Origin: a virus | IMG/VR virus record: IMGVR_UViG_3300031857_000038 | Coordinates: 1 to 64,000 of that record | Strand: one strand, 5' to 3' | Length of the DNA: 64,000 nucleotides | Shown: positions 2,203 to 43,600 of the stretch, one piece after another | Layout: the number at the start of each line of letters is the position of its first letter | How positions within the stretch are numbered: position 1 is the first letter of the stretch | Notes under the pieces: model-generated | Told to the model about the DNA's origin: nothing | The model's input: only the letters and a program-made list of their open reading frames with translations | Database searches by the model: none | Made by a program: the position numbers and the translations under genes

Positions 2203-5200
2203 TTAAACCATACTGTTCCTTAATATTCTAGTGCGAGTAGAATTGCCGTCATCTAAGGCATCAATCATGTTATCAAGCTTTCTTGTTAGAACGTCTATCA
2301 TTTCTTTTTGTGCGAAACTCATACGGTCAAGTGCTTCTCTTGTAACATTAGATCCCAACATTCCGTCAGTTCCGTCTGCTGCGGCAGGAGTCTTGGCTAA
2401 TCTCATCAAAATTGAATCCATGTTAAGCGGAGTCACTACTTCAGTTCCGTGCAACGTTGCTGGATATCCGCTAGCAGGGCCGCTGACGATTCCGCCTTTA
2501 GCTAATTCAATGTGTAAGTGATCTTTATGATCTTCTGTTCCCCAAATTACTTCAAATTGTTGAGCCGTTAAACGGTCCCTTAAGGCATCAAATCGTGCTT
2601 TTCTAGGTGGATCATTCCATTCTGGACCTTGCCCATCTATATTAATGTCAAGGGCTCGTCCACTATAATGTAATGAACCATCCTTATGACCGCCCGTTGG
2701 ATTAAAATCTGGGTGCCCCGATACATTAAACCCTTCACCTTTTAATGTCATAGCCAATTGTCTGATTCGCTGTTGTTGAGAACCACCTAAAACACGATCA
2801 ACTTCAGAACCAAAAAATGCACTTTGTTCAGATAAATTTCTGCCACCAAATTGGCTAATGTTAGTGTCTTCGGGGTACATGCTTGGGTTGTTTCTAATAA
2901 AGGCTTCCATTGTCATATTAGGATTCGTCGTCAATTCTCGTTGAAATTTTGTGAACCCGGCAATACCTAAGTGATGTGCTCCTCTCATTTCTGCATTAGT
3001 AGGAGCTCTTCCTAATCTGCTTGTTACATCTGCGATAGCTCCTCTAGCGTGTATTCTAGCTAATAGTTCGTCAGCTTGTTCTGCTTGAGGACTCAAAAAT
3101 GCAGTACCTTCTTTATTAACAAGTTGATCTAACGTAGGTGTAGATGTAAATCCTAACCTAGCTAATTCAGCCCTTTCTTGATCAGTCGCATATTTCGTAA
3201 ATGCGTCCGATCGGGCGGCCTGACCCATACCGTATGCGCCGCCAATAGTCGGGGCGCCACCCAACTTAGTCGCCCTAAGGTGTTTTCCTCCTCCACTTTC
3301 TAGTGCTTTATTAAACGCCATCATACTTTCTACGGTAGCGAGTGAATTTGCACTGCCACCGACTGAGGCTCCTTGAAGCTGTGTCAAACTTGTTCCAATT
3401 TGATTTACAAGACCCTTCATTGCATCCTTTAAGGTTGTAACCATTAAGGCAGCAGAATCCATAGCGTCGGTAAACTTTTTGAACAATGCAGTTTGTTGCT
3501 TCATTTGTTCTTGGGAATTCTTTGATAGAATCTTACGCTGTTCGATATCCTTGATTGTTTGATCAGTACTGTTGGCGAAATTTTTAGTATTGCTAGCGAG
3601 AGCCTCGTTGTTTTCTGTGGTGGCTTCTTTACGCTTTTCTATTTCTTCAGTTGTCTGCCCGCCAGTAGACGCACTGACAATTTTTTCATAACTTTCTTTG
3701 TTAGTTTTAGCAAGTTCAGCCACCGTATTTTTGAAGTCTGCGCTAGCAGTCGCCATTCCTTCACTTGCGGTTTTATTAGTTGTTGCCGCAGTTACTTGTT
3801 TCTCAGTGGCTGCTTTTTGCTCCGGAGTACCCGTTGTGACTCCACCTGTTATATATTCACTAAGCCCAAACGTTAATCCGCTTAATGCACTTTTACCTGC
3901 ATTAGCCATTTTACCACCAAACGAAGCATTAGGATCAGCATTAAATCCTTGGTAAGCATCGTATGCTGCAAAAGCACCTGCTAAAGGCAGAGCTAACTTT
4001 CCTAATATTCTTCCCGCGCCTTTTGCTACGTTCAATATTCTAGAACCTCCGCCGCCCTTAGGTGCTTTAGCAAATCTTCCTTGAGCGTCACGATATCTAC
4101 CGTCTGCACCTTTCTTTGGTGCTCCGCCTCCGCCACCGCCGCCGCCAACTAGCCCCCTAATCCAATTAATTGCACCGCTAAGGGCATTACGTAAACCTGA
4201 AAATACTGATGTTAGACCTTTAGTACCCTTGGCTAAACCGTTAAATAGTGAAACAACAGTTGTTGCTACTTTCATTCCGATGAAAGCACCAGTAATAACA
4301 GCTAAAATAGGGGCCCATTTTTTTACTTCTCCAATAAACCAATCAAAATTATCTTTGACAGTGTTTATAATTTCAAATAATTTTTGAGTTGCCCACTCTA
4401 GTGCTCCTGCAAATTTTGGAACAACGATTTCAGCTAATGCATACATGCTGTCATAGTATAGCTTTTGTATTTCACGTTCTGATGAACGGATCTGCTCAAC
4501 TGCATCAGCCATTGCATCGCCTTCAGCTTCTTTTGCTGCGGCAGCTTTTTTAGATTTTTCTACTTCTTCTTCTAGATTTTTACCTAAATAGTTGTTACCT
4601 TTAGTAATTGCTTCAGTAGAGCCAAGCAATGCTCTAGCAGATTCCTCACCCATAAACTGGAAGGAATCACCAACTCTTTCCACCATATTGTTCTGAAGGT
4701 CTGTTACTTTTTGAGCTTGCTTTAGAGAATCCGCTTGAATATTACCAGAAGTCTTAACGATGTTACTTACTTCGGTAGCACTTACCCCTAATGTTGCTAA
4801 TCCACTTGTGAACTGGTCATATACGCCGGTTCTTGCTAAACGTCCAAACTGAGAACCTATGTCTCTACCATAAGTATCAGTCATCGTTTGGATTAACTGG
4901 GTTCTGTTGTCTTGTTCTTTCTTAATAGCATCCGCAGCTTCGTGTTCGCCGGCAGCACGAAGACGTTGAATCTGTATATTTTCTTGACGAATCTTAACTT
5001 GTTCTTCAAACTCAGCTTTAACAATTTCACGTTCTTGTTGCATCTGTTCAGCAGTTTGACCAGTAAGGTCAGACATGATGATTAAGTTTTTAGCATAGGC
5101 TAATGATTCACGTTGTAGCTGACCTTCTGTTTTTGTTCTGTTTTCTAATGCTTTACCTGAAATACCCTGCATTTGGATATACATGCCTTGCATTTCAAGT

Positions 5201-5928
5201 AATCTATCTTGGTCAACACCCAATCTACCAAATTTGCGACGAACATCATCTGTTACCGCCGCCATTTCCATAAATCTTAATGCACCCTCACCAGCAGAAC
5301 CACCTAAGCTAAGAATGTTTGTGCCGAAGCCAGACATAGTTTTGCTGAGCTTCATTATCTCTTCGCCGGAGAATCTAGCGTTAGATCCTAATTCTTGTAT
5401 GCCAGAGAGAGTTGTAGGTAAGATACCGGCAAATTTAGAAGTTTCGTCTCTAAATTGTACAACACTGTCTACTGACTTAAAGATACCAGCAGCGAAAAAC
5501 CCAAGAGCTTTTGCGGCGCCGCCTACAACCATGCCTAAAACGCCAAAGTTTTTACCAATGTCCCACGCTGCATCGCCAGCATTATCAAACGCATTGCCGT
5601 ATTTTTCTAGATTTTTTTGACCATCAATGAGAGCCTTACCAAAATTTGTAACAGCAGCCTGACCGCTGATTAGTCCTCTAGAGAAATTAGCAGCAGCTTC
5701 AGCGTATTTTTGTTGGGCAACCGCGCCGGCTTCTAATGCCTTTGTAGACCCAGATAGGACTTCAGTTTGCTTTTTAGTAGCTTCAGTGTTGCTTTTTACT
5801 GCATCCGCAGCTTTTGAGGTTGATTGTAGGGAATTCAGTAACTTTGAAGTAGCAGTGGCTTGCTGGTTGAGCAAGTCAACCATTGTTCTCATATGTTCTT
5901 CGTAGTCTCTCTGAATTTCTGGATCCAT
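2203..5928 (-). CDS. tape-measure protein with C-terminal lytic domains
   Basis: The product is about 1241 residues, the expected architecture of a tail-length ruler. A helical, Gln/Lys/Ala-rich N-terminus is followed by hydrophobic segments (near residues 130-150, 540-565 and 645-660) and long Ala/Lys/Glu coiled stretches. Near residues 875-1000 an E-S-G-G ... G-A-Y-G-M-G-Q pattern suggests a lysozyme or transglycosylase fold. Near 1065-1145 is a peptidase M15-type metallopeptidase: SLHYSGRALDINI supplies the His and Asp ligands and HKDHLHIEL the last His. It may cut peptidoglycan during DNA entry. The ATG at 5928 is chosen over a TTG two codons upstream because GGAA lies six bases before it. 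It is far longer than T4 gp29 (590 residues). Confidence 0.85.
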   Translation of the reverse strand: MDPEIQRDYEEHMRTMVDLLNQQATATSKLLNSLQSTSKAADAVKSNTEATKKQTEVLSGSTKALEAGAVAQQKYAEAAANFSRGLISGQAAVTNFGKALIDGQKNLEKYGNAFDNAGDAAWDIGKNFGVLGMVVGGAAKALGFFAAGIFKSVDSVVQFRDETSKFAGILPTTLSGIQELGSNARFSGEEIMKLSKTMSGFGTNILSLGGSAGEGALRFMEMAAVTDDVRRKFGRLGVDQDRLLEMQGMYIQMQGISGKALENRTKTEGQLQRESLAYAKNLIIMSDLTGQTAEQMQQEREIVKAEFEEQVKIRQENIQIQRLRAAGEHEAADAIKKEQDNRTQLIQTMTDTYGRDIGSQFGRLARTGVYDQFTSGLATLGVSATEVSNIVKTSGNIQADSLKQAQKVTDLQNNMVERVGDSFQFMGEESARALLGSTEAITKGNNYLGKNLEEEVEKSKKAAAAKEAEGDAMADAVEQIRSSEREIQKLYYDSMYALAEIVVPKFAGALEWATQKLFEIINTVKDNFDWFIGEVKKWAPILAVITGAFIGMKVATTVVSLFNGLAKGTKGLTSVFSGLRNALSGAINWIRGLVGGGGGGGGAPKKGADGRYRDAQGRFAKAPKGGGGSRILNVAKGAGRILGKLALPLAGAFAAYDAYQGFNADPNASFGGKMANAGKSALSGLTFGLSEYITGGVTTGTPEQKAATEKQVTAATTNKTASEGMATASADFKNTVAELAKTNKESYEKIVSASTGGQTTEEIEKRKEATTENNEALASNTKNFANSTDQTIKDIEQRKILSKNSQEQMKQQTALFKKFTDAMDSAALMVTTLKDAMKGLVNQIGTSLTQLQGASVGGSANSLATVESMMAFNKALESGGGKHLRATKLGGAPTIGGAYGMGQAARSDAFTKYATDQERAELARLGFTSTPTLDQLVNKEGTAFLSPQAEQADELLARIHARGAIADVTSRLGRAPTNAEMRGAHHLGIAGFTKFQRELTTNPNMTMEAFIRNNPSMYPEDTNISQFGGRNLSEQSAFFGSEVDRVLGGSQQQRIRQLAMTLKGEGFNVSGHPDFNPTGGHKDGSLHYSGRALDINIDGQGPEWNDPPRKARFDALRDRLTAQQFEVIWGTEDHKDHLHIELAKGGIVSGPASGYPATLHGTEVVTPLNMDSILMRLAKTPAAADGTDGMLGSNVTREALDRMSFAQKEMIDVLTRKLDNMIDALDDGNSTRTRILRNSMV

Positions 5929-5969
5929 GCTCAATTCCGGTAATAAAATAAAATAATGGGTTTTTTGCC

Positions 5970-6029: not shown

Positions 6030-6866
6030 ATGGAAAACAATCCACTACGACAATACTTCAGAAGACCATCAGTCTATCTAAAATTACCCAGCGGGGGAAA
6101 AGGTTACCCCGAAGATGTGTTGGATTTGACTCCAACCGGCGAACTGCCCGTATTTCCAATGACTGCTATTGATGAAATTAGTGCTAGAACACCCGACGCA
6201 CTTTTCAACGGCACAACTGTAGCAGACTTAATCAAGAGTTGTATTCCTAACATTAAGGATCCGTGGAAAATATCAAGCGATGATATGGATGCAATTTTGA
6301 TTGCAATTCGTGCAGCTAGTGTCGGAGACGGATTAGAGGTTGAATCAATCTGCCCATCCTGTACAGAAAAAAGCAATTATAACGTAAATCTTATGGGACT
6401 ACTCAGTACTATTGTTCCCGGTAACTATGATGAAGTATTAGAAGCAGGCAATGTTAAGGTTAAGCTCAAGCCATTGACTTACAAGGACATGAACGCTGGT
6501 GCATTAAAGCAATTTGAAATGCAACGCTATTTTATGGAAATAGAAGCCGAAGAAGACATGGAGAAGAAGAATAAGATGGGAATTGAGGCACTTGAGAAAG
6601 TCACCTTAGTTACTATGGATTTGATTTCCCAGACTGTTGATTATGTTGAAACTCCCGATGGTGAGCGTGTTGATAACCCGGAGTTCATCAGCGAGTTCAT
6701 TAGAAGCTGTGATCGTACTACATTCACTGCAATTCGTGACTTCAATGCTGAACTAAAGAAAAACACCGAAATCAAACCAATTCATACTACGTGTCCATCT
6801 TGTGAACACGAATATGATCAGCCAATCACATTGAACCCAACTGATTTTTTCGGCGAAGGCTTCTAA
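6030..6866 (+). CDS. baseplate hub assembly protein, gp26/gp51 type
   Basis: This 278-residue protein opens with an LRQYFRRPSVYLKLPSGGKGY segment typical of the T4 baseplate family that includes gp26 and gp51. Two CPSC motifs (C108/C111 and C255/C258) probably bind one zinc ion together. In T4, gp51 is needed for hub assembly but is not part of the virion, so a chaperone role is plausible. Start choice: an ATG at 6018 is in frame, but GAGGA lies six bases before the ATG at 6030. The last codons cover a TTTTTTC slippery heptamer, and the -1 frame stays open for 76 further codons. The gene diverges from the tape-measure gene, from which it is separated by about 100 bases. Confidence 0.85.
   Translation: MENNPLRQYFRRPSVYLKLPSGGKGYPEDVLDLTPTGELPVFPMTAIDEISARTPDALFNGTTVADLIKSCIPNIKDPWKISSDDMDAILIAIRAASVGDGLEVESICPSCTEKSNYNVNLMGLLSTIVPGNYDEVLEAGNVKVKLKPLTYKDMNAGALKQFEMQRYFMEIEAEEDMEKKNKMGIEALEKVTLVTMDLISQTVDYVETPDGERVDNPEFISEFIRSCDRTTFTAIRDFNAELKKNTEIKPIHTTCPSCEHEYDQPITLNPTDFFGEGF
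6845..6851 (+). promoter_or_regulatory. -1 frameshift slippery heptamer T-TTT-TTC
   Basis: The heptamer is in the phase required for -1 slippage: zero-frame codons are GAT TTT TTC, giving X-XXY-YYZ. The zero-frame stop follows at 6864-6866. Downstream, 6857-6863 (AGGCTTC) can pair with 6889-6895 (GAAGCTT) as a 7-bp stem with one G-U pair, five bases after the heptamer; CGGCG (6851-6855) and CGCCG (6874-6878) form a competing or pseudoknotting stem. Either could stimulate slippage. Confidence 0.7.
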
Positions 6867-7081
6867 CTGCTAACGCCGAAAGCATCAAGAAGCTTATTGA
6901 GACTTACGAACAAGAGGTAGCTGAAATTAAAAAGTCCGCCCTCTCAATGGCCTGGTACATGAGAGGGGGAGCTTCCTACCAAGACATTATGAATATGTCT
7001 GAGACGGAACGTAGAGCAATTAACGATATTATTGAGAACAACTTAGAAATAACGAAGAAATCACAACTTCCATTCTTCTAA
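6851..7081 (+). CDS. -1 frame extension of the gp26/gp51-type protein
   Basis: After slippage at 6845-6851, translation would continue in the -1 frame for 76 residues, giving a fusion of about 350 residues from the 6030 start. The extension reads like real protein: a charged helix (SIKKLIETYEQEVAEIKKSA), then MAWYMRGGASYQDIM, then a helical tail ending LPFF. The frame has no ATG, GTG or TTG until 6947, well inside this stretch, and no ribosome-binding site, so frameshifting is the simplest way to make it. The layout matches lambda G/GT and P2 E/E' tail chaperones. A short 44-residue product from the ATG at 6947 is the alternative. Confidence 0.6.
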   Translation, partial: RRRLLTANAESIKKLIETYEQEVAEIKKSALSMAWYMRGGASYQDIMNMSETERRAINDIIENNLEITKKSQLPFF

Positions 7082-7090
7082 AGCTTGGGA

Positions 7091-7140
7091 GTTGTTCTTC
7101 GAACAACTTAGACACTCACTACGTTCGGTCTATTCTTTTT
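7091..7140 (+). terminator. tandem hairpins and T run after the hub-assembly gene
   Basis: GTTGTTC (7091-7097) and GAACAAC (7101-7107) form a perfect 7-bp stem with loop TTC. A second short stem TAGAC (7109-7113)/GTCTA (7128-7132) leads directly into TTCTTTTT (7133-7140). Together they look like a factor-independent terminator, although the second stem has only five pairs. Confidence 0.4.
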
Positions 7141-7190
7141 AACAATAAATTCATTATAACATTTAAGAGATATACATTGCCGGTTTAGAA

Positions 7191-7533
7191 GCCATGGTAG
7201 TGCTCCTGAGGGCACTACCAAAAGCTGAGGTCCTTGCCATGGCCCGTCATCCTTTGCTGTCTTTCCCCGTCATACTAGCTTTACATGCTGTATAACGCCA
7301 CCGGTTGCCCTGTAAAGTTTACTGGGTTGTAGTGAAGCTATAAAGTGGAACTCACTCTATTCTTCGGCAACGCATGTTCTATAGCATCAAGACAGAATAT
7401 CTATAGACTCATTCAAGGTTCGCCTACCGTGCGAGAGCCTTGTCGGTGTTCCCTAGGATCGCTCCTAGGCATACTCCAGAATCCGGCCGCATTCATTCGT
7501 GGTGCAACCTCAAGGAGGACTGTAATAACAGTC
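7191..7533. ncRNA. candidate structured RNA between convergent genes
   Basis: The gap 7082-7565 has no credible coding frame but is full of perfect or near-perfect stems and looks richer in G+C than its flanks. Stems, in order: GCCAT/ATGGC (7191-7195 with 7239-7243) closing GGTAGTGC/GCACTACC (7196-7203 with 7212-7219); CTTTACA/TGTAAAG (7279-7285 with 7311-7317); GCTATA/TATAGC (7337-7342 with 7380-7385) continued inward by GAAC/GTTC (7348-7351 with 7376-7379) around a bulge; CAAGG/CCTTG (7414-7418 with 7438-7442) continued by TCGC/GCGA (7420-7423 with 7431-7434); CCTAGG/CCTAGG (7452-7457 with 7464-7469); GACTGT/ACAGTC (7518-7523 with 7528-7533) around AATA. The strand is undetermined. It matches no tmRNA, RNase P, tRNA or group I/II intron pattern I could recall. 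Confidence 0.5.
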
Positions 7534-7565
7534 ATGTCGATGTAAAAGGGTTCTGTGTTAATAGT

Positions 7566-8114
7566 TTAAATATTGATTGTCAAGATTTCATCTGACTTGG
7601 TGTCGTTTGAGCCTGAGTAAACTTTAAGAAGGTCTTTGTTGAGTTTAAAAAAGTGTTCATGTTCCATAATAATCCACTCACCTGCTGTTTCAGAGTTGTA
7701 GTGGATGAAGTTGTCTGCAATCCAAGTAAACTTAGATTCTACAGCAACAAACTTGCCTTTTCTATTGAACTTCATGAAAAGAATAGAGCAATCGTCGGTT
7801 TCAGCAACATCCATTAGTTGCTTGATCCAGCCATCAATAACTTTACATTCACCTGTCATCAACAAGTGAAACGGAAAGTCAGCATAACTTTTGCATTCTG
7901 CGTTGAACTTAGTAAAAGACTGTCCAGGTACGATATCGCCCTTGAAGCTTCTAACTTGTCCTTCATGAAGAAATTCTTTACGAGACTGATTCTTGCCTCC
8001 CACATACGCACCACTTCCGGGCGCTCTAATAAAACTTTCGTTATACGTCTTTGTTAAGAAGGTTGCAATCTCTCTTTCAAAAGAAGAACCCTTAGCTTTC
8101 TGTGGACTTGGCAT
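7566..8114 (-). CDS. PD-(D/E)XK nuclease, Holliday-junction-resolvase-like
   Basis: The 182-residue protein has the layout of archaeal Hjc-type resolvases and related restriction-fold nucleases: an N-terminal KGSSFEREIATFL helix with E13, an RAPGSGAY strand and turn, KGD with D60, and NAECKSY with E73 and K75 as the catalytic E-x-K. It probably cuts branched or unpaired DNA during recombination or before packaging. The gene is followed by the structured-RNA candidate and lies behind the gp46/gp47 operon on the same strand. Its ATG has no Shine-Dalgarno and is seven bases after TATAAA, in a leader almost identical to that of gp47. Confidence 0.75.
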   Translation of the reverse strand: MPSPQKAKGSSFEREIATFLTKTYNESFIRAPGSGAYVGGKNQSRKEFLHEGQVRSFKGDIVPGQSFTKFNAECKSYADFPFHLLMTGECKVIDGWIKQLMDVAETDDCSILFMKFNRKGKFVAVESKFTWIADNFIHYNSETAGEWIIMEHEHFFKLNKDLLKVYSGSNDTKSDEILTINI

Positions 8115-25672: not shown

Positions 25673-28600
25673 ATGGCACGTATTAGAACACTAAACTTTC
25701 TTCCGGAAATCTTCCAAACACCAACAAACAGTCAGTTCCTCTCGGCTACACTTGATAGACTCGTAAGTAACCCTTCGTCTACTCGTGTGCAGGGTTATGT
25801 CGGAAGCAGATTTGGTTCGGGTATTAATGCGCTTGATTATTATGTTACTGAGCCAACCAAAACTCGTGCAGACTATCAGCTAGATCCAAGCGTGGTGTTT
25901 ACAAGAGCAGAAGAAGAAATTGCTAATGATTTTATTACATACCCAGGCATTATTGATTCACTAGAGCAACAGGGTGCGGTCACTGGTAATAACAACAGAC
26001 TATTCAACAGTCAAATTTACTCATGGGACAGCTTTACAAATCTAGATAAGCTAGTCAACTATTATGAATATTACTGGTTGCCAATTGGCGCCCCAGCGGT
26101 TACTGTTGCACCTAGCACAGTATTCATCAACCAAGATTATATCGTAACTGACTTTGCTAATAGTTACGAAATTAGTGAAGTTGGCTCAATCATAGGAACC
26201 GGAACCAATCCAACAATCTCAGTGATTCGCGGAGGAACTTATAGATTTGAAGTAAATCAAAACTCTCAGTTTTGGATTCAGACTGAGCCAGGTACTAGTG
26301 GATTTTCCCCCACACAAGAAAATCTACCCACACGAGAAGTTTTTGGTGTAGACAACAACGGTGCTGAAGTAGGCATCGTAACATTCAACGTCCCATTCAA
26401 GAATGCACAGGATCAATTTGTTTTCCCTGGCAACAATATGGTTGACGTAATTTGCAATATTCCGTTTGATGAAGTCAATGGTAGAAATCTATACACAATC
26501 AATGACATTGCAACGGGTATAAGCTATCCTGGGCTAGACAACATTGATGGCGTGACTGGATTAGACGGTCTAAGAATAATGTTCTATGACACTGGCGTGC
26601 CAGATGAGCAAGGATATGTAGCATCTTATTACGATGAAACATTTTATGATGTTAACGACCCGTTCTTTACAGAACCTAGAACTGTTACTGTTGGCAGCAC
26701 AAACGCTAGTGGTAATAGACTTTCAATGGCATTAGGTTTCACCACAGATGATCTAATTCCTAATCAAACTGTGACCTTTAGCGGAGTGCTATTAGGTGGC
26801 ATTGTTGAAGGTCAAGTATATTTTGTAAAAGACATTATCAACTCAACTGACTTCACTATTTCACAAGACCTTCAGGGCGACACTGTTACAGTGTTCACTC
26901 AGTCAGGCGCCAACATGATTGTTAACATCAATCAGGGACAGTTTCAGAACGGATTTAACACAGTAGTAAGCGAGAACTTCTACAGAATTCAATATTTGGG
27001 TGACCCCGACAACCCCATCATTAGACTATTGCCGGACGGTACTATTCCTAATAATGAAAAGATTTCTCCAAGATTTGGTACTGAGTACATCAGCAGATCA
27101 TTTTACAGAAATACTATAGGTGTCATTAGTATGATACCTATCATTACTGCACCGCTTGACGTATTATATTATCAAGACGGGACCAATCCAAATAAAGTCG
27201 GCGTAATTAAAATTAATGATTCTGATTTAGACAACTTTATTAATATTGAAACAGAAATCTTAGGCAAAACAACTTATACATCACCGAACGGCGTACAGTT
27301 TACGAACGGACTAAAAGTTCAATTTGATGGTAACGTCTTCCCTAATTCATATCGCTCAGGCGAATATTATGTTGAGGGCGTGGGCACAGCAATTGAATTG
27401 GTTCCTGTTAGTGAACTAATTGTCCCTGAGAAATTCTCTAGAGGCGACTTCATACCATACGACACTGTTGGATATGATGATACTGGCTACGACATAGAAT
27501 TATTTGTTCCTGTCGACCCCGACTACATCACTATTGCTAGAAATAGTATTAGCAAGAACGCATGGTCAAGAAGCAACAGATGGTTCCACATTGACGTTAT
27601 CAACGCCACTGCACAGTATAATGATAATCCAAATATCTTGACAGAATATGCAACTCTTGACAACAAAGCTAAGAGACCAATCATTGAGTTTTATCCTAAC
27701 TTAAAAATGTTTGATGCAGGTACTCAAGGTAAGAGACCAGTTGACTTCTTTGATACTCGTGCAACAGATGCATTGTCTCAGGTTGCAGGATTAGCAAATT
27801 ACTATCCTGACGTAGAAACTTACACTAGCAACACTGCGGTTGTTGCCAGCACACCAAATACTGTAGTAGGTGTAGCATCCATGTTGCAAGGTAACACCTA
27901 TGAGCTAGTCAATGTTAGTGGTACTTTGCAAACTTCATGGAATGATCTAGCAGGAACTTTGGGCGTTACATATTTTCCTGGTGACAAAATTGTATGCGCT
28001 AAAGACGGAAACGATTTACTAGTGCCAGGCACAGGTACTGGACGTTTAATATATGACGAAGCCACAATCACTGTACCATCAAGTGATGTTACTGGAATAT
28101 TCCAAATCGGGATGTATGTCGGTGACGTATTAGATATTATACCTACTAACGCACAGATTATCAATCTTACTGATGACGGAACAACTACCACACTTACGAT
28201 TAGTTATCCATTCCCACAAGACATTGTTGGAGGAACAACATCAATCGTTGGTACTGATACTACAGTAAGCAACTATGCAGTGTTCCCTGGATCAAGAATA
28301 ATCTTTTCTAACGACACTGACGAAGGCACGAAGCATAAGATCTATGTTGTAGATATCGTTGTTACTACTTTAGGCGGTAGCCCACAGATTGTATTGATTG
28401 AAGCTGAAGATACTAATGTTGAAGTTGACCAACAGGTTGTCATTACAAGAGGCTTCAACGAGCAAGGTAAGACATTCTACTTTGACGGTATTGAGTGGCT
28501 GCAAGCTCAGCAGAAAGTAACTGTTAATCAGGCCCCTCTGTTTGATGCGTTTGATGATAACGGCATTAGCTTCAGCGATAGCACAGTTTACAATAGCACA

Positions 28601-31600
28601 AGCTTTACTGGAACTACACTGTTTTCATACGGCATTAATCCATTAACAGTTGACGATCCTATCTTAGGATTCCCTGTAAGATTCACTGATGTGGGCAACA
28701 TTGGAGATATTAGCTTTGATGTTACTATCAATTCTGATACCTTTAATTATGTGCGCGGCATTGAATCAATAACACAGAAAGTAAACACTGGCTACGTACA
28801 CAATTACATTAGCAGAATTAATTTTACTAGAGAATTGGGCTGGGTAACAGCAGTAGAAAATAGCGTACAGTATCAAGAATTCAACTTCAGATATAATATT
28901 GCCAACCCAACAACTCAGTTTGTTTGTGATGTGGCTGCGTTGCCTGAATTACCAGTTGATGTTAAGGGTTGGCCTAGAGTAAAGGTGTACAACAATAACA
29001 CATATCTAGAACCAACCGACTACACAGTTGAGCTTTTTGATACCGTTACTAGAATTACGTTAAACACTGTTCCTGATGTAGACACTGTAATTCAAGTATT
29101 GCTCTTGAGCGACCAAGTCAGCCAGAGCGGATTCTATCAGATTCCTGACAACTTGAATAGCAACCCATTCAACGAAGACTTGACTGTAGCAGATTTGGGT
29201 GACATTCGCAATCACTATCAAGATATCTTTGTCAATGCACCAAATACTACTGGTGATATTTTTGGCTCAAACAACTATAGAGATTGCGGTGACTTAACTC
29301 CATACGGTACTAAGATTATTCAGAACAGTGCTTCAATGGTACTACCAGGCGTGTTCTTGCGTAAAACAAAATACGACCTATTAAACGCATTGATGTTTAA
29401 CGGCAATGAATATGTCAAGTTCAAGCAACTATTGGTTGATACTGTACAAAACGCTCAGTTCACTATTAGAAACACCCCAGCAGAAATCCTAGACGAAGCT
29501 ATTGAACTGATTGCAGCTAGTAAGAGTGAGATTAGCTCATTCTACTGGTCAGACATGTTGCCAAACAGATCACCTCTAGCAGTAAACACATATAACTTTA
29601 ATAGTAATACCGACGTAACTCGCTACCCGTTAAACAAAGTTTATAATTTTGAATCAGCTAACTATGATAGCGTATTGGTATACTTGAACAGAACCGTCAA
29701 TAACAATCTAGTACAAAGACAGCTTCTAAGAAATGTAGACTATACTATCAGTGCTGATAGTCCAACAGTCACCGTTACTTTAGATTTGGTACCCGGTGAT
29801 CAAATCATTGTTAAAGAATACAATCAGACATACGGTTCATATGTTCCTTATACCCCAAGTAAGTTGGGACTCTATGATCTGTACGAGCCTAGTGTTGTAT
29901 TGGATAGCAACTATTCTACACCTACATATTTCATTAAAGGACACGACGGCTCATATACAAAGCTATATGGCACTTACGTCCCTCAAACTAATACTCTGCT
30001 AGACTTCAGAGACCAAGCACTATTGGAATTTGAAAAGAGAGTTTACAACAACGTTAAGCTAAGCACAGAAGTTCCAATCAAGCTCTATGATGTATTGCCT
30101 GGCTTCTTCAGAGACAGTGACTATTCATATGATGAATGGTTGCAGATGTATTCAACTAATTTCTTGAATTGGGTTGGTCAGAACAGAATTGACTACAAGA
30201 CTCAGTTCTTCAACAGAAATAACGAGTTCACATATAACTACACCAATTCAAGCAACAAGCTAGATAATTCTCAGATCCTGCAGGGATATTGGAGAGGTGC
30301 ATATCAATATCTATATGACACTACTACTCCTAACTTAACACCATGGGAAATGTTAGGCTTTGCCAACAAGCCGACTTGGTGGGAAGAACGCTATGGCCCC
30401 GCCCCATACACAAGTGACAACTTAGTATTGTGGGGAGACCTCGAAGCCGGTAGAGTATATTCAGCAGATGGCACAAGTGTCATTGTTCCTGAGTTAGCCC
30501 GCCCAGGTCTTTTAGAGATTATTCCGGTCAATTCAAACGGCGAACTATTAAGTCCGTTGATTAGCATTGTAGGTAACTATAATCCAAATACTTTCCAGAA
30601 AGATTGGAAAGTAGGTGACGATGGCCCCGCAGAACTTAGCTATCGTCGTAGCTCAACGTATCCGTTTGACGTTATCAAGCTGTTTGCAATGACAAAGCCT
30701 GCTGAGTTCTACAACTTAGCAGTTGACCTAGACAACTACAAATACAATGCTGAATTTAATCAATATTTGGTAAACAACCGTGACCACTTGATTATTAGTG
30801 ATGTTCAAATTTACGGTGATGGTATTGCCAAGACCAGTTACATTAACTGGATCGTAGACTATGAAAAGCAGTTTGGTGTAGATGCTACACACGAAATTAA
30901 AGAGACTCTAAACAATCTAGACGTTAGATTGGCATATCGTCTTGCTGGTTATAGTGACAAGACATTGCTCAAGTTCTACGTTGAAAAGGGTTCACCAAAC
31001 ACTGCTAATGCATCGCTATTGATTCCAGATGAGAGCTATCAGGTTCTTCTTTACGATAACCAGCCATTCGACAAGGTAGTTTTCTCTAGCGTAATCATTC
31101 AGAAAACTGTTCAAGGTGGATTTACTGTTTTTGGCAATTCACAGTCCTTTGCTTACTTTAGAATTAAGGCACCTGTTAATAACGGTAGAAGTGAATTTGT
31201 TACTGTATTAGAAAAGACAGTAAAATTAGCTACGGACTATTCAGCTAAAGAAGTACTTGTCCCTTACGGAACAACATTCTATAGTATACAAGAAGTTGCA
31301 CAATTCCTAATGAGCTATAACGCATACCTAAAAGACAAGGGTATGAAGTTTAATGAAGTTGAGGCTGGTACTGAAGTCAATTGGGAATTGATGGTAAAGC
31401 AATTCATGTATTGGACTCAGATGGGTTGGGAAGACGGAAGCTTAATCACGCTAAATCCTGCTGCTACTGACCTTGTCTTTGACAAAGAAGGCAGCATTGT
31501 TCAGCCGCTAACTATTCAGCAGCAGAACTTCATTCTTAACCAAGACTTGTACCCCATTCAGATTAATACTCTTTGCGTGAATCGTGACGGCACACTGTTT

Positions 31601-34600
31601 AAACTCCATACATTGAACGAAGGCGATAGCATGGCTTTCGCACAATTTAATGTGAGTAACTTTGAGCATGGCATCGTGTTCAACAACACCACGCTATTCA
31701 ATGACGTTATCTATAATCTTGTCACTGGATTGAGACAGAATAGAATCACATTGCGCGGAACTAAGACTAGCGAGTGGAACGGTACCGTTGACGCTTGGGG
31801 CTTCATCATCAATCAGAACAATGTAAAAGAATGGTCAAAGGATATCAAGTATCCTAAGGGCTCAATTGTTCTGCATAAGAACAAGTATTACGCTGCCCTA
31901 AGATTGTCAGAACCAACAACTACATTTACCGACCTTGATTGGAAGTTAATCAATTATGAAGATGTACAGAAAGGTCTACTACCTAACTCAGCAACCCGCT
32001 CTTTCGAAAGCACTTTGTACTACAACTGCAATGAGGCTAATCTAGAACAGGACGCCGACCTACTATCATTCTCATTGATTGGTTATCGCCCAAGAGATTA
32101 TCTCGCATTAGCAGACTTGACAGACATTACCCAAATCAATGTCTACAAGAACATGATCAAGAACAAGGGTACTGTTAATGCTGTAACTGCATTTGACGGT
32201 GTTAACTTGCCTCAGGGCGGCATTGAATACGAAGTTTATGAAAACTGGGCAATCAAGTCAGGTGACTATGGTGGTTTGCTAAGTCAAAACTTTGTAGAGT
32301 TTAGAGTTGACCAAAATCTTTTGACCGGTAACCCAAGCATCGTGTCATTAACTAACGGTGTCTACACTGAAGGCGCACAGCAAGAAGTACCTATCTATAG
32401 TTTGTTTAACTACGGTGATACTATTACTGATCCAAATGTATTGGCAGTAACCACTGACCCATATAATAATCTGTACCCATCAGCCGGTTATGCTAACTTT
32501 AACGATGTGAAAATGTCGTCCTTCTACTATGGTGGATTGCCTAACGGTGTCAACAAAGAAGGCATAGTTGTTCCTATTCAGAATTTCTATGTAAGAGACT
32601 ATCTATGGTTAGCAAGCTTTAAAGAAAAGTGGGGAATCTTTTCTTGGAGCCCAATCGGTGAAGTAGTTGAAGTAGCAGCGAACCTAAATAATACTGCGAC
32701 AGTAACATTTAGTAAGCCACACAACTTGAAGAATCTAGATCCAATCGCTATCGTTAACTTTAGTGAAAACGTAGACGGTTACTATATCGTAACTCAGATT
32801 GTTAACTTGAATCAAGTAATAATCAACTTGAATGTTTCTGGTCTTGAATCAAGCGGTATCACTGGTTCAGGCATAGGTATGTTAATCTACAGTCAGCGAG
32901 TCGCACAGCCCGGTGATATTAATACTCTACCTCTTCTAGAAGCTGAGTTCACCAAGAACACTGTTTGGGTAGACGAAAATACTGACGGTGGTTGGGCAGT
33001 ATACAGAAAAGGTATCAACTACGCTAGACAGGGTGAGCTATCCACAACCACTTCAAGTACATTTGGTAATAGCGTTGCATTTACAGAAAGTGCCGGTTAC
33101 CTAGTTGCTGATTCAGCTACGGGTACAGTCTATAGATATTATTACAAAAATGCAAATTACGATCTAGCTGAAACTATTACTAACGATGATAGTTTTGGTG
33201 AGAAAATTGTACATAACAATAATACTTTTGTAATTTCTCAGCCAACTACTAATCCAGCGGTATATGTATACTCATGGAATGATACTGCCTTAGCAAACGA
33301 GTTGTTACTAGCTCAAACTATCGCCGCTCCAGGGGGAGTGACTGATTGGGGAAGTGAATTAGCTATCTCCGGCGATGGTAATTGGGTCTATATTTCAGAT
33401 ACGTTGAACACTCAAGTATATGTTTACAGAAAGAACAATCAAGAATTTTCTGCTGGTTACTTTGTCCCAACACAAACATATGTAATTACTGAGTTGGGTA
33501 CTACTGACTTTACTGCAATTGGTGCAATTGAAAACAGTGTTGGTATTACTTTTGAAGCGACAGGAATAGGAACTGGTACTGGTACAGCAATCAATACTAC
33601 ATACGAATTAGTAAACATAATTGAAAATCCTGACATTGTGACTGCCGGTTCATTTGTTATCGGAGAAGAATATAAAATCGTTTCATTAGGAAATACTGAT
33701 TTTACATTAGTTGGTGCAGCATCAAATAATGTAGGGGTAGTGTTTACTGCTACTGGTATTGGCGCTGGAACCGGAACTGCATCAGCACAAAGCAACAGCT
33801 TTGGCACTGCAATCTCTACCGATTTTGACAGTGATTGCTTGTTCATCGGTGCACCTAACAAAGATTATAGCGTGAGCGTAACTAATTGGGGAGAAGTTTA
33901 CTTCTACCAACGTTCTGTTCAAAACTTTGAATCAACTGCTGTTTCTACGTTAACGCAGCCGCAATTCTTTGCATTAGGCTGGACACCTGATACTGCAACT
34001 AAAGCAGTAACAGCTACCTCTGACAGCACTGACAGAATCACATTAGCGAACGTATCTGGAATCAGTGTAAATGATGCTATTACTTTTGAGGGCACTGGTC
34101 TAGCTGGAACAGATATTATTGCATATAAAACATATTATGTTGCTCAAGTATTTCCTATGTCCAATGCGATTACTATTAAGGAATCAAGATCAAAAGCAAA
34201 CACTGATATAGTTCAACTATCTACCGTTTCGAGCATTTCTAATGCAACGGCCCATGTTCAAAGTGAATTGTTGCTCGTAAATGTCAACGGACGTATGGTT
34301 CAGGATAATAATTATGCAGTTGTAGGTAGTTCACTAGTATATACTGGCTCACTAAATGCAGGAGACATTGTAGAAGTCAGTGGTAATGATTTTTATAATG
34401 TTCAAACGTTCAACGCTGCTTCTAATAGCGCAATCAACATTCAATTTGGATATGATTTGGACGTTACACGACAAGCCTCAGAACTATTGATTGGCAGCCC
34501 ATTTGAAATTGACTCTGAGAATAGAGAAGGTTTGGTATATAGATTTACTAATGGTGGTGCAAGATTTGGTATTGTAGCAGGTGAGAATCAATGCTTCCTA

Positions 34601-37600
34601 TCAACAACCCGCAGCATTTTAATCAACGGATATCAAGTCACATTGGCTGCTGGTACTGCCGCTGCCGTCGCCAACCAAATCGTAAATTCACGAGTACCTA
34701 ATATTACTGCATCTGCAACTACAGACAATAAACTTATCATTCAAGTAGTTGATCCAAACTTAGCAGAAATCAATAACCAGCTGATGGTCACTGCATTTGA
34801 TACTGCTACTTTAGATGAATTGGGTATCAGTGTGTATTCACCTACTCAAGTAATTCCCTGCCCTCACAAAGAAGGCCCAACTGAGTTCGGCAAGACAATT
34901 AAGTTCAATCAGTTTGACTCAGTTGTAATTGCTGCTCCTGCAGGTCCTAACTTTGTAGCCACTACGTTTGACTTCACTGATGACGAGAATCTAGACAACG
35001 ACACTGTGTTTGATAACAATGCAACTAGATTTGTTGAGAATTATCCTAACGCTGGCGCAGTCTACATGTTTGATCTATTGACAAACAATAACGGCAGCTT
35101 GTCGAATCCTGGTGCATTTGTATACGCACAGCCATCCAACAGTGCAAATCTAGATTTTGTCATCAATCCGTATTACGGTGAAGCTGTTGACTTCTACGAT
35201 AACGTTGTTATTGTGGGTGCTCCAAATCAAATAATCAATCCATCAAGCGTAGGCCAGGTAACGACTTTTGTTAATGCAACTGGTGTAAGAGACTGGTCAG
35301 AGTATCGTCAAAGCGCACCAATCGTAGATATTAACAAGATTCAAAATACACAGTTGTTTAGTGCTAGCACTAATAACACCCTAATAAATCTAGACTACAT
35401 GGATCCGTTGCAGGATAAGCTATTGGGTGCAATAAGAGAAAACATTGATTATGTTTCACCAGAAGACCCAGCCAAATACAACGTTGATCCGCTAAATGTT
35501 TCTGCTAATGTTTGGGGAAGTCTACAAGTAGGAAAAATCTGGTTCGATACATCAACTGTTAGATTCGTGAACTACCATCAGAATGATGTAGTGTACAATA
35601 GCGAGTACTGGGGAACTGTATTCCCTGGCTCAGATATCTCAGTATGCACTTGGGTAGCTAGCAATGTTCTTCCTGGTCAATATCAGGGACCTGGAACTCC
35701 AATTGATCCTACAAAGTATGCAGTCGGTAGTAGATTGAATGCGTCTAACATCGTTACTCCAGTTTATTATTTCTGGGTAAGAAATAGCGGCCTAATTGTT
35801 AAAGAGCGTGAGAAGACCCTATCAGATGCAGTACTTGCATCATACATTGCAAATCCACAGAGTTCTGGAATCGCATATATGGCACCATTATTGCCTAATA
35901 CTTTTGCGTTGTACAACTCAGCAGAATACATCAATGATATTGATAGCGTTTTCCATATCGGATTTGCTACTAACCAAGACACTGATGTTCCTCACAACGA
36001 ATTTAAATTGATTCGTCAGAATTTCCCTGATGACTTCTTACCAGGTCTGATGCCCGGTGAAGAGCCATTCTCTCTATATGCAAGAATGCTTGATAGTTTG
36101 TCAGGTACTACTATTAGTGGAGAGATTGTACCTAATCCTTTCTTGCCACTAGCTGTTCAGTCAGGCGTGCTATCAAGACCAAGACAAAGCTTCTTCTACA
36201 ACAGATTTGAAGCACTAAAGAACTACTTGACATATGCTAACGCAGTTCTTGCACAGTATCCTATTACTGAAATAAAGCCAGACATTTCGTTCGCTTTCGT
36301 TTCGGATGAATTTTACAATACCGCAGATTATTGGGAGTACATCAACTGGTGGGCACCGGGTTATAACAACAGCACTAGAGCTTTTGCACAGGTACCGTTG
36401 TACGCCGATCTAGCAGAGCTTACAGTAAACCCAGGCACTTTAATTAAAGTAGATAATAACGGCAGTGGTTCGTTTGAAATTTATCGCTATGACGGTGAAG
36501 GTGTCTGGACACGAGTTGGTCTAGAAAACGGAACAATCGCATTCAGCAGCGCATTGTGGGAGTATGCTAAGTTTGGCTTAGGATACGGAAACGATTTCTA
36601 TGATACTATACCATATGATGACTATCCAAGCGAAGCAACTAGAAATATCATTCGTCTCCTAAACGAGCAAATCTATACTCAGGAGTTGTTGATTCACAGA
36701 AACAAGAGTCTAATTCTACTCTTAGAATACATCCAAACGGAAACAATAGAGTCACAGAATTACTTACCTTGGCTTTCTAAAACATCATTGATGGATGTAT
36801 TCCACACTGTTCGTGAACTACGACCATTTGAAGTATTCAAGAGTGACAATGTTGAATTCTTAGAAGGTTATATCAACGAAGTCAAACCTTATCACGTAGT
36901 CTTAAAAGAGTTCTTGATTAAGTACGATGGTATGGAAGTCTATGATGGAAACATTACTGACTTTGATGTTCCTGCAACATACAATACTAATTTTGATCAG
37001 TATATAAGCCCGCAGCTTGTATTCACTGACCCTGATAATGAATATCAGTATGATGAAACCTCGCCTATATGGTCTACTGCCCCATATACTCAGTGGTATC
37101 AGAATTATGGTTTGTCATTGACTGGGCAAGAAAACTACCTTATAACTACACTAAAATCATATATGGATTTGGGTTCTAACGTAATGCTGGTAGATAATGC
37201 TAGCGGTTTCCCATCCAACGGTGTTATACAAATTGATCAAGAAATAATTTCTTATGCATTTGTTGACAGAAACTTAAATCTGTTGGGAGGCTTGTCAAGA
37301 GGTTTCAATAACTCACAAGTATCAGAACATATTCCTGACTCAGATATCTTCATTGATTTGCCTGCGGTGGTAGTGCTGGATGAAGGTTCCGGTTACACTC
37401 AAGTACCAAGAGTAACAGCATACGTTGATACTGCATTGTATCCTGCACCTAGAACAGAAGCAATATTACAAGCAGTAATGAGTGGCGGAAGAGTAAGTTC
37501 AGTTCAAGTTATTGATCCAGGCGAAGGCTACGTTGTTTTACCTGAAATTAGAATTGATTCTGCATACACAATTCCATTTTCGGACACTGACATTAACGCA

Positions 37601-40600
37601 AGCCTAAACACAATTAATATTAATGCTCCTTTCCTTAGAACAGGTGAGATAGTTAAATTCAATAGTGGTACCGATGGGGCAAAGCCAACTAATCTTGTAG
37701 ACGATTCTTGGTACTACGTCGGCGTTCTTGAATCACTGCCCTCAGTAATCATAGCTCTCTACACTAACTATAGTGATGCAGTAAAAGATCAAAATAGAAT
37801 TAATATTGCACCTGGTTTAGCTTCTAATGATATGACGCTTTCTCCTGGAGCTAGAGCCTCAACTATTACGAGTTCAGCTCCTACTAGAGAAAATAATATC
37901 ACATTGCGCTTTGATAGAACTACCTACAATTCTCAAGTTATTGATTGGGAATCAGGAACATTCTATGGCGCATTCTTTGCTGGCACATACTACAACAGTG
38001 ACAAGATATCAAGTTCGGCCATCACACTAGAAAATACTGAGCCAGATATCAACACTATCTTAGCAAGTGCCCAAGGCGTAGCACTACAAATTAGTGATGT
38101 TACCGATGAAGAGGAACTTGTTTGGTCTGCGTTTACTCGCTATGTCAGCGGAACCTCAAGTGTTGATAATTCTATTAGTCTGATTCCACAAGACGGAAAT
38201 AACCCTGACTTGTCAGAGTTAGAACCAAACGCTTCAGGAACAACAATCGGTTTCTACATCGGAATGCCTATTAAATTCGTTGGTACTATAGTAGGCGGCC
38301 TATCAGAAGGCGTAACATACTATGTTTCAGAAATTATTGACGAAATTAAGTTCTCTGTATCAGACACTATAAACGGTTCTACAAGAGTACTCAATAACGG
38401 AACAGTAAACGCACGATTGCTTGAGTGTTATACAGGAAACATCAACGAAACTGTTATTGTCTCAGTTGATTACCCAGGTATTATTGAAGCAACGCAAACT
38501 GAAGGCGTCATCAATGCTATTACAGCGCCGCTATCGCCGGTTGGAACAGGAGGAACAATTGGTTTCTACACGAATCTTCCTGTATTCTTTACTGGTAACG
38601 TGTTCGGCGGAATAATTGAAAACTTTAATTATTATGTAACCTCTGTAATTGATAATCAGACATTTACAATCAGCGAAACACCAAACCCAGTAACTGTCAC
38701 TGTCACACAAACTAAGGCTAGTGGAAACAGTCTAGTTGTTTCAACTATTAATGGAATCTCTAGAAATGATCCAATCATCATCACTTCTTTGACTGGTGGA
38801 TTGGCTACTAGCGGAATAGTTGCAGGTAGAACTTACTATGTAAGTCAGCTCATTAACCCAACCGAACTTACGATTTCTGAAGTAGTAAACGGTCCTGTAC
38901 TATCAGTTGCTAGTAGAGTTGGTACTGCGGTCTTGACTAACCAAAAGGACACTGTAAAGTTAACGAACGCTACTGGTTCAATGACAATGAATGTTTCTCT
39001 ACCGGTTAGCCCAGGACAAGTTGACGGACAGTTATTCACATTGTATAAAACTTCCGGACAGTTTACTGATATTACTCCTTCAGGTGCTAACTATTCAGAC
39101 CTAATTGAAAGACCAATCAGAGCTACAATTGGTACAGTAAACAAGATTGCTATCTCTGAGAACGATGGCGGAACATTCAACTTCTATGTGAACATGCCAA
39201 TTCAGGTACTCTCAAACGTAGGCGGACTAGTAACTGGTACTACGTATTTTGTAACTGAATACTCAGGAATGGTTGATCCATTAGATAGTGAACTTACGCT
39301 GCCTAATATTCAAGTTGAAGTTACTAACACATCAGATATCGGAAATGTGTTGACCTGCACAGTTGACCTTCTTAGAGGATTTGATGGCACTGACTCACTT
39401 TACGAAAAAATGCCTATTACATTCCAGGGAACTGGTTTAGGTGGCATCGTAATTGATCAAGAATACTATGTAAAAACGATAGTAAGTGCTACTCAATTTA
39501 CTGTTAGCGAAGTAGTAGATGGACCTGTCAAGGTACTAACTCTTGCTAACGGACTTATGGTCGGCACTGGCGACCCCTACATTACGGTATCAACGTCAAA
39601 GGGAGGCTCATCGGTTGCATTGACAGATGACAACAGTGCTACTTCTTCATTCACTCAGTTTATTACAGTAGACCCAGTATTTGACCTTTCATATCTGTTA
39701 GGCGGATATAACGCTATTATCTCTACTCCGGGTGAAGGGTTTGCAATTAGCAACACTATCTTAATTCCAGGAACAGCAGTTGACGGTACTTCACCAGCTA
39801 ATGACATACTATTGACAGTGAATACAATAGATGAGGATGGCGGTATTACTTCAGTAATTCGCTCAGGAACTCCACCAAGCGTTGCAAATCAGTACTACAT
39901 GCAAGTCCGTTCAGCAAACACACTTGCGGTATATAAGAACAGCCTATTAACAATTCCAGCAACTCCTGCTGAATTTGATTACGTAGGTTACACTACCGCG
40001 ACTGTAACAGAAACCCAAACATCAACCGATATTATTACCGTAAACAGCACAGCCGAGTTTGCAGTCAATGATGCGGTAGTATTCACTGGCGATGTTACTG
40101 GCGGCATGAACTTAGGTCAAACTTACTACATCCTAGACAACGGAAACTTCACCGCTACAACACTACAGATTAGCGATACTCCTGGCGGAAGTGTAATTCC
40201 TCTAAGCACTGCAACGTCACAGAATTATTCAATGGCTAAATTAGGAAGTGTCGCATTTCTTCCAGAACCATTCTTCTTCAATCAAAGTATTGTTAGATTC
40301 AATAACCGAGTATATGTCTGTGTAGTCTCTAACAACGATGACGAATTCATCTTTGGTAAGTGGGAACTGTTAGACAGCGGCGACCGTAGATTGAATGCGA
40401 TGGATAGAGTCATTGGTTACTATCAGCCAACGAGCAATATGCCCGGTGTTGACCTACAGCAGCTATTTGAGGGTACTACATATCCTAACCCAATCTATCA
40501 GGGTAATAACTTTGATCCAAACTTACAATATGGTGTTGATACTATATTGACTCCGCTTCCATTCTATCCTAGTGAAGTTGATATCAGCGGCATTATTTGG

Positions 40601-43600
40601 AACGGTGACAACTATTTGGCTAGTGCTAACTTGCCAGGATACAACGCTATCTTGACAAGCGAAGATGGTGAAACATGGACTATCAATCAACTAACAAACA
40701 ACAACATTAATACCACAAGCATTTCGCAGTTGAACGGGTTCTACTTCTTAACGTCAGCAAACCCAACTGTTCCGCTTCTTAGAAGTGTTAATGGGGTAGC
40801 ATGGTCTGCGGTATCATATTTTGTACCGTTTGGAACAACTGAACTAGAGTTACAAAATCTCGCAGCACTGAATATACCTTCACTATCACTAAATGATGTT
40901 GCATACTGCACGACCGGTGATGCATGGGTATCAGTAGGTAGAAACATTTTAAGAAGCGAAGATGGAATTGTTTGGAGAGAATTGACCGAATTCAATCCAT
41001 CGCTAGAATATAATCTTAATGCAGTATCATCTGTGACAGGAGCAAACTGTTTGGGGTTAGTAGCAGTAGGTAAGGGTAAACAACCTGATTACTCAACTGG
41101 CGTCACGCAATTGGTTGATGTTGGTCTAATCTTCTACAGTCAAAATAGTGTCAACTGGAATCAGATTCAACCTCTTACTAGCAATGGCTTGTACGGCGTA
41201 TCCAGTGACGGAACTACAGTAATTGCAGTGGGTGAGCGTCAAGTAATCTACTACACTCAAAACGGTTTTGATTGGCTTGGACTAAATGAAGTAGGATGTG
41301 TGTTTGTTGATAGCATCAACAATTACCTCAACGTCACTAACACTGCCGGATTCACTGATGGATCGCTAGGCACCCCGGTAAGATTCAATAACTCATTCTC
41401 TACTATAGTAGCAAACACTACTTACTATGTCAAGGAAATAATTTCACAAACTCAAGTAACACTATCGTCAACACTTGATGGTAGCGTACTCACGCTTTCA
41501 AGTGCTTCTATTCCTGACAATACAAGAATGTTTGTATACGATGCTAGTGATCCAATTCCAGCTACACTAAACGACATTTTGTATGCAAACAGTCTTTGGA
41601 TTACAGTTGGTAATGAGGGTACTATCAAGACCTCAACAGACGGCATCGTTTGGGAAACTCGCACTAGCAACACTACTAATAATTTAGATAACGTCACGTA
41701 TAATGAAGATCAAGGAGTGTTCGTTGTAGTAGGAGAAAACAACACAATCCTAACAAGTGCTGATGGCATCAGTTGGGAAGAGACCTCAGTGTTTGATCCT
41801 ATTGTACCGGTATATGATGTGAAGGGTGCAAACTTCCAATTCGGATATGCACCGGAAGAATTAGTAGCAGGTGTTGTAAGCGACAATCTCGCATTGATTG
41901 TAAACACTAGACCAGGATCTAACTGGCCTGTTGTTGAATATGGACACACTGGATTCAACGTCAACTCTATTGAAGTAGCACCTATCAATGCAACGCAGCT
42001 AGAGTACAGCTTTGCAAATCTAGCAAATGTTCCGGTAACACTTAGAGTACAGGTTATTAATGGTACTACTGAGTTGGGAACTACACTATCACCTGATGCT
42101 TATACTATTGATTGGATAAACAAGAAAATCATATTAGATCAGGCAATTAGTTTCTCTCCAAGACTTGATAAACTAAGAATTGATGTATACGAAGCAGGCA
42201 ATGGCGACCAGCTTGTGAAGGCAAGCACGGATACTTATCCTATCATTACTGATAGCGACTTTGGTTTTAGAGAAATCAATCTATCTTGCAACTACAGTGC
42301 TACTATCTTTGAGGGTGGTGGCGCTCTAAGACCCGGCACTGATAATGTGAACGTTAGAGTCTTTGAAACTGAATCTGTCACAAATCGTATTTTCTGCGAT
42401 GAGGTAGCAGACTTCATCATTAACAGTCCGATATCATTCCAAGGTGTTCCGTTCGGTGGCTTGCAAGAAGAAACTGTTTACTATGTCAAGACAATAAGCT
42501 TCGCAACCAATGCAATCACTGTGTCTACAGTTTTTGATTCATTGACCGGCATAGCTGGACCAACTACTGAGTTGACAGACGATACAGGCGAAATGTTTGC
42601 AAACATTCAGAATGGTGTAGCTGCTGTTTGGACAGATCCACTCGTAGAACACAATGGCGAGAAATTAGTGTTTGGTGGTATTGGTCTCGTTACTAGATCA
42701 AAATCTAGCAACAACGCACTGACCACTGGAACTACAAGCGGATTGATTGTTGGTACTCCTATCACCTTTGGTCAGGCTTCATTTGGCGTATTAGTACCCT
42801 TCCAAAGATACTATATTCAATCAATCATTGACGGTAACGAATTTACTATTTCTGAAACACAGGGCGGGCCAGTTCTAGCTCAGGATGATTTCGCAGGAAC
42901 TACTACATTCGTGACTAATGATTACTCAATTGGACTTAGAAATGGTAATAAGGCAAAGTTAGTATTTGCAAACAATACCTTTACTAACGATGTTGACTAT
43001 ATATCCTTCTCAATCTTTGGCGAAACACAGCCAGCGCAGTATGGTTATGCTGTTCCGGAAACTCAGTATTACGCAGGAAATGGTTCAACCAGTCTATTCC
43101 AGTTAGCTAACTTTGTAGGCTTAGATAACCCACAAAATGCGATTGTGGAAGTGAACGGTGTTAGACAGACTATATCACAGTATACGATTGACGCTATCGC
43201 CAACACAATATTGTTTGATAGTCCTCCTCCCGCAAACTCAGTGGTTGCGGTAACTACGTACAACGATACATTAAGACAATACCTAACCAGTCAGTATGAC
43301 ATTACTGGTAACCCAGGTTCTTCGTTGCTTAACCTAACAGTTATAGAAACAGTAAACGAGCTAGGAACATATGACCAAGACGCTCCGGTAGTTCAAACAT
43401 ATGACCAAGATACTCCTGTTATTGTTCTCTATGATGAATTCTTGAACTATCTAACTTTGGGACCAGGCGATGACACCAGTGTATTGAATGTTAACGATTC
43501 ATTGCAGTTCAGCGCACCAACATTAGGCGGAATTGTTGCAGGACAAACCTATTATGTTCTTCAAATTCTTAACTCTACCGACTTCGTAATTTCTGAAGAA

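Follow-up and report, generated by a model that had tools for sequence, protein, structure and literature searches.

A very probable programmed -1 frameshift in the gp26/gp51-family tail assembly chaperone gene of a T4-related phage

Positions 6030-7081 of a T4-related phage genome very probably constitute one gene with two products, a pair of tail assembly chaperones generated by programmed -1 frameshifting. This reading is directly supported by a slippery site, a -1 frame that is both open and under selection, a covarying hairpin, and homology to gp26 and gp51 of T4. The window analysed is the first 64,000 nucleotides of IMG/VR record IMGVR_UViG_3300031857_000038, which has 118,793 bases in total. 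The features of the locus are as follows.

380-2167: portal protein of the T4 gp20 family, by family match
2203-5934, minus strand: divergent neighbour of 1243 aa, plausibly a tape measure protein
6018: alternative ATG 5' of the frame-0 gene start
6030-6866, plus strand: frame-0 gene, short chaperone form (TAC-N-like), 278 aa, PF12322/phrog_150
6845-6851, plus strand: slippery heptamer T_TTT_TTC, frame-0 codons GAT TTT TTC
6852-6857, plus strand: 6-nt spacer between slippery site and hairpin
6858-6894, plus strand: putative stimulatory hairpin, from pairing, folding energy (MFE) and covariation
6851-7081, plus strand: -1 frame extension, helical domain of the long form (TAC-NC-like), 76 codons and TAA
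7566-8114, minus strand: neighbouring ORF on the other flank

The frame-0 gene sits between the divergent ORF at 2203-5934 and the minus-strand ORF at 7566-8114. Its final codons are GAT TTT TTC GGC GAA GGC TTC TAA, with the stop at 6864-6866. A first-pass annotation made from the letters alone had placed an in-phase slippery heptamer 13 bases before this stop; the phase was right, but the distance is 12 bases. Past the slip, the -1 frame continues for 76 codons (6851-7078) to a TAA at 7079-7081, as that annotation had described. With the ATG at 6030 as start, the predicted fusion comprises 274 + 76 = 350 residues, in line with the length of about 350 given earlier.

The frame-0 protein belongs to the T4 gp26/gp51 family, as originally proposed. 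It matches PF12322 with E=5.8e-22 (78.9 bits, curated cut-off 24.5) and phrog_150 with E=2.3e-20, and PF12322 is single-copy in the complete 118,793-base record. The short form and the -1 domain were modelled as two separate chains. The AlphaFold2 model of the frame-0 protein has a pLDDT of 91.5, and its matches in BFVD are labelled 'baseplate hub assembly protein, T4-like'. Against the PDB it gave no fold match at E<=0.001, and homology to the lambda G or HK97 gp13 chaperones was found neither as a PDB fold match nor as a family-model match. The predicted fold also matches longer uncharacterised proteins in other giant phages, namely Erwinia phage Special G and the Ralstonia phages RP12, RSF1 and phiRSL1, a likeness between models that suggests unrecognised chaperone relatives in these phages.

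The tape measure gene had been said to lie next door. A large divergent ORF does adjoin the frame-0 gene, and a tape measure identity is plausible from its position, length and annotation. Its position matches that of RaK2 ORF088, annotated as similar to a tape measure protein, and its similarity to this counterpart is weak (E=0.027). Family searches with the ORF gave no match.

The frameshift could be real and its product a minor structural subunit of the baseplate hub, made in two forms; we consider this unlikely. The PF12322 and phrog_150 labels do read baseplate protein or baseplate hub, and older T4 genetics put gp26 in the hub (PMC3004832). The same review, however, classes both gp26 and gp51 among the chaperones of hub assembly and gives gp51 as missing from the particle. 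In KVP40 and in S-PM2 the gene pair is also immediately followed by a large gene, and that of S-PM2 matches tape-measure families. These points favour the tail assembly chaperone reading.

The slippery site is not a chance occurrence: it is the only one of its kind near the end of a sizeable ORF in the window, and it is conserved in relatives. An in-phase X_XXY_YYZ heptamer no more than 20 codons from the stop occurs in one of the 51 window ORFs of at least 100 aa, namely the frame-0 gene. At the DNA level the gene matched nothing among annotated phages, and relatives were therefore sought by protein. The -1 protein alone, in a search of IMG/VR blind to the heptamer, retrieved 61 loci, and every one of them has T_TTT_TTC in phase where the upstream frame ends, mostly one codon before the stop. 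Loss of the heptamer among close relatives, which the first-pass annotation had considered, was thus not seen in these 61 loci. Some of the 58 'unique' entries were chosen by the heptamer, and 61/61 is the unbiased conservation figure. The frame-0 protein as query found 20 loci in IMG/VR; all that reach the site have the heptamer, and one ends before it. The string TTTTTTCG, which is the heptamer and the next G, is invariant in 51/51 distinct relatives, while neighbouring third positions vary. Codon choice at the heptamer is not mere bias, since usage in the rest of the gene is mixed for both amino acids concerned (Phe TTT:TTC about 2:1, Asp GAT:GAC about 2.6:1). A DNA-pattern scan combining the site with the first hairpin arm added at least 78 new matches. 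The 78 examined are all at the chaperone gene; 76 have complete -1 ORFs and 2 are interrupted by contig ends. Rfam holds no family for the frameshift site.

The -1 frame behaves as coding sequence. It contains no stops in 51 distinct sequences, whereas the other two frames average 6.6 and 8.0, and third codon positions account for 50% of its changes. Purifying selection on this frame, anticipated by the first-pass annotation, is evident in a median dN/dS of 0.165, against 1.26 and 2.63 for the same DNA read in the other frames. The domain is predicted to be alpha-helical with a pLDDT of 86.4, in keeping with the helical domain first described. For the 78-aa -1 domain, fold searching yielded no significant hit.

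The 7-bp stem reported initially exists. GGCTTCT at 6858-6864 pairs with AGAAGCT at 6888-6894 (7/7 pairs in the window) after a spacer of 6 nt, inside the 5-9 nt range expected of a stimulatory structure; alternatively, extension to 6857/6895 gives 8 bp and a 5-nt spacer. The 6-nt spacing is the same throughout a gap-free alignment of 45 relatives. A second helix continues the hairpin in most relatives. In the window this inner helix of the consensus is imperfect, a 4-bp version shifted by one base (6868-6871 with 6881-6884). Across 51 sequences, the 50 nt from the hairpin start fold with a mean of -14.3 kcal/mol, compared with -7.2 for shuffles that preserve the -1 protein. This excess is concentrated at the hairpin (mean z -2.86), and three later windows give z of -0.2 to -1.0. 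RNAalifold with default scoring predicted 8 of the 14 consensus pairs at a consensus energy near zero, and because of this weak result the named structure was counted directly against shuffles and slid controls. In the 45-sequence alignment, 84% of the cells of the 14-pair structure are paired. The structure has 48 double-change cells, compared with 21.3 in shuffled alignments, a number reached by 0/500 shuffles, and a covariation score of 0.278 versus 0.183 shuffled. Pairing drops when the structure is slid by one to three columns. The fold is not uniform. A longer stretch of the window, folded as a single sequence, prefers another structure, and in several relatives the 5' arm is retained but its partner lies further 3', giving up to 13 bp.

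The site extends well beyond the metagenomic relatives. T_TTT_TTC is also present in the jumbo phages RaK2, 121Q, PA5oct, Munch and Atu_ph07 and in S-PM2, phiW-14 and KVP40, and a T_TTT_TTT variant occupies the counterpart site in Cr30, phiN3 and HTVC008M. Folding after the site exceeds that of shuffles in Atu_ph07, Cr30, phiN3, KVP40, phiW-14 and 121Q (z -2.2 to -4.9). S-PM2 has a long hairpin there with z -1.5, and in RaK2, Munch and HTVC008M the sequence past the site folds no better than shuffles. A covariance model of the frameshift element ranked this place, or the corresponding one, first in 9/12 records searched. It misses T4 and one relative with a differing hairpin, and scores the true KVP40 site below a chance match.

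Several of these phages are annotated in a way that suggests two genes. The -1 domain is listed as its own small gene in four of them, as follows.

KVP40: KVP40.0327 (L126 5613-5780)
S-PM2: gp51 (L127 4191-4364)
121Q: 595 (L085 6837-7046)
Munch: 275 (L086 6061-6219)

The slippery site is present in all four despite this annotation, which is probably a consequence of the frameshift. The KVP40 annotators had already remarked on the likeness of the small downstream ORF to the gp51 C-terminus. The domain could nevertheless be translated on its own as a small protein, with ribosomes terminating at the frame-0 stop and reinitiating there, and an ATG does lie at or near that stop in KVP40, S-PM2, 121Q, Cr30, phiN3, phiW-14 and LIMEstone. 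Among the 51 close relatives, 11 have their first ATG at codon 3-4; in 37, however, the first possible -1 start comes only at codon 20 or later. The window itself has no ATG, GTG or TTG in the -1 frame before codon 34 and no ribosome-binding site there. This bears out the first-pass annotation for the window, while some distant relatives do have an ATG near the stop, yet keep the slippery site. Protein conservation starts from the slip codon, 5' of the candidate starts, and T4 gp51 holds the -1 domain as an in-frame fusion. Reinitiation also leaves the invariant heptamer and the covarying hairpin unexplained. We regard it as very unlikely to account for the gene, although in relatives with an ATG near the stop it could add a separate small protein.

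Transcriptional slippage on the run of six T, which would shift the frame in the mRNA itself, is extremely improbable. The run is seven or more in Cr30, phiN3 and HTVC008M, but six T is short for efficient transcriptional slippage, and the conserved C together with a hairpin phased to the ribosome at 6 nt fits ribosomal -1 slippage. Single-base shifts in homopolymers are a typical sequencing artefact, but a decayed or mis-sequenced in-frame long gene is next to impossible here and is already refuted by the relatives, given that isolate genomes and 51 distinct sequences drawn from many metagenomes share this layout, and given the purifying selection on the -1 frame. Readthrough of the frame-0 stop was rejected on the in-phase heptamer in 61/61 loci and the conserved -1 frame.

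For programmed ribosomal frameshifting we propose the following mechanism. The majority of ribosomes would terminate at the TAA at 6864 and release the 278-aa short form. A minority would pause at the hairpin 6 nt past the slippery site, where the two tRNAs on TTT TTC would slip back by one base and translation would continue in the -1 frame. The product would be a 350-aa long form with an extra C-terminal helical domain. By homology to gp26/gp51 and analogy to lambda gpG/gpGT, many short copies would coat the tape measure protein, and the extra domain of the long form would couple the tape-measure complex to hub or tube assembly. We infer the slippage and its frequency, as well as tape-measure binding and absence from the virion, the latter two by analogy.

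A leading review describes frameshifting in tail chaperone genes as widespread 'except T4' (Atkins 2016, PMC5009743). In lambda, gpG and gpGT act as a chaperone of the tape measure, with the long form made at a low level (PMC5009743). As proposed for the window, the two products, one short and one long, arise through a -1 frameshift late in the first frame (PMC5009743). The window protein differs in belonging to PF12322, another family, with no PDB fold match. Its tape measure candidate is divergent, whereas that of lambda lies downstream. Phage Adele (Vandenendeviridae) likewise has a conserved T-rich -1 frameshift that joins a short chaperone to a C-terminal domain, but it uses a GTTTTT site and belongs to another phage family (PMC12846349).

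The closest comparison is with T4 itself. Gp26 and gp51 are of the same family as the frame-0 product, but T4 encodes them as separate short and long genes and uses no frameshift, in keeping with the first-pass annotation; it has two PF12322 copies. One copy each is found in S-PM2, KVP40, HTVC008M, Cr30, Vi01, phiW-14, phiN3, LIMEstone and all jumbo records tested. In these single-copy genes the -1 domain comes after a terminal T_TTT_TTC or T_TTT_TTT, with the exception of the Ackermannviridae Vi01 and LIMEstone. Those two keep the -1 domain with no clear heptamer (GAA ATT TTC ATT TAA), an ATG overlaps the frame-0 stop in LIMEstone, and reinitiation or another slip may operate in both. In a single hhalign comparison, residues 39-70 of the -1 domain align with the C-terminus of T4 gp51 (columns 220-251, E=4.9e-7), and the '-1' protein of S-PM2 matches the final part of phrog_150. 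T4 gp26 ends in KEFFELL, without the -1 domain. Judged from sequence, the short and long forms that share one gene in these phages seem to have a gene each in T4. We give about even credence to the idea that hairpin-stimulated frameshifting on T_TTT_TT(C/T) is ancestral in the T4 superfamily and that in T4 it gave way to a gene duplication, represented by genes 26 and 51. One T4 copy would have retained the short form, and the other would have fused the -1 domain in frame. The direction, frameshift first and duplication later, is drawn from a small genome sample. If true, an ancestral frameshift would call for a caveat to the published position that a non-frameshift mechanism operates in T4-like phages.

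The novelty is smaller than the first-pass annotation had thought. Frameshifted tail chaperones in general are classical, and tail assembly chaperone genes of T4-like phages were already identified in 2022 (Vladimirov, Gautam and Davidson, Virology 566:9-15); judging from papers that cite this work, these are apparently the same genes as those of the window. The citing papers describe a short gene and a fused long gene in some T4-like phages, and one of them reports polyT slippery sites as known in T4-like TAC-N genes (PMC12846349). Three aspects may be new: the breadth across jumbo phages, a conserved hairpin that covaries while its distance from the slippery site stays constant, and the clear correspondence between the -1 domain and the C-terminus of gp51. 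The window thus offers an unusually well-supported frameshift case within the wider T4 group, where T4 itself has two genes. It also allows annotation to be corrected where the -1 domain is listed as a separate gene (KVP40.0327, 121Q 595 and Munch 275) or missed (RaK2 and PA5oct).

Two further observations concern other parts of the window. An ORF-free stretch at about 7090-7540, 3' of the gene, is 68-90% identical at the nucleotide level in more than 30 relatives, at the same position. In one relative the identity is 90.5% over 476 nt, against just 59% for the -1 domain beside it. No match was found in Rfam at E<=1 or by blastn in annotated phages. In a 21-sequence alignment the consensus folds far above column shuffles on both strands and more strongly on the minus strand, where 68 pairs have 98% of cells paired and 212 double-change cells. 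On this comparative evidence the element is a candidate new structured non-coding RNA. Elsewhere in the window, positions 25673-45331 form a single ORF of 6552 aa.
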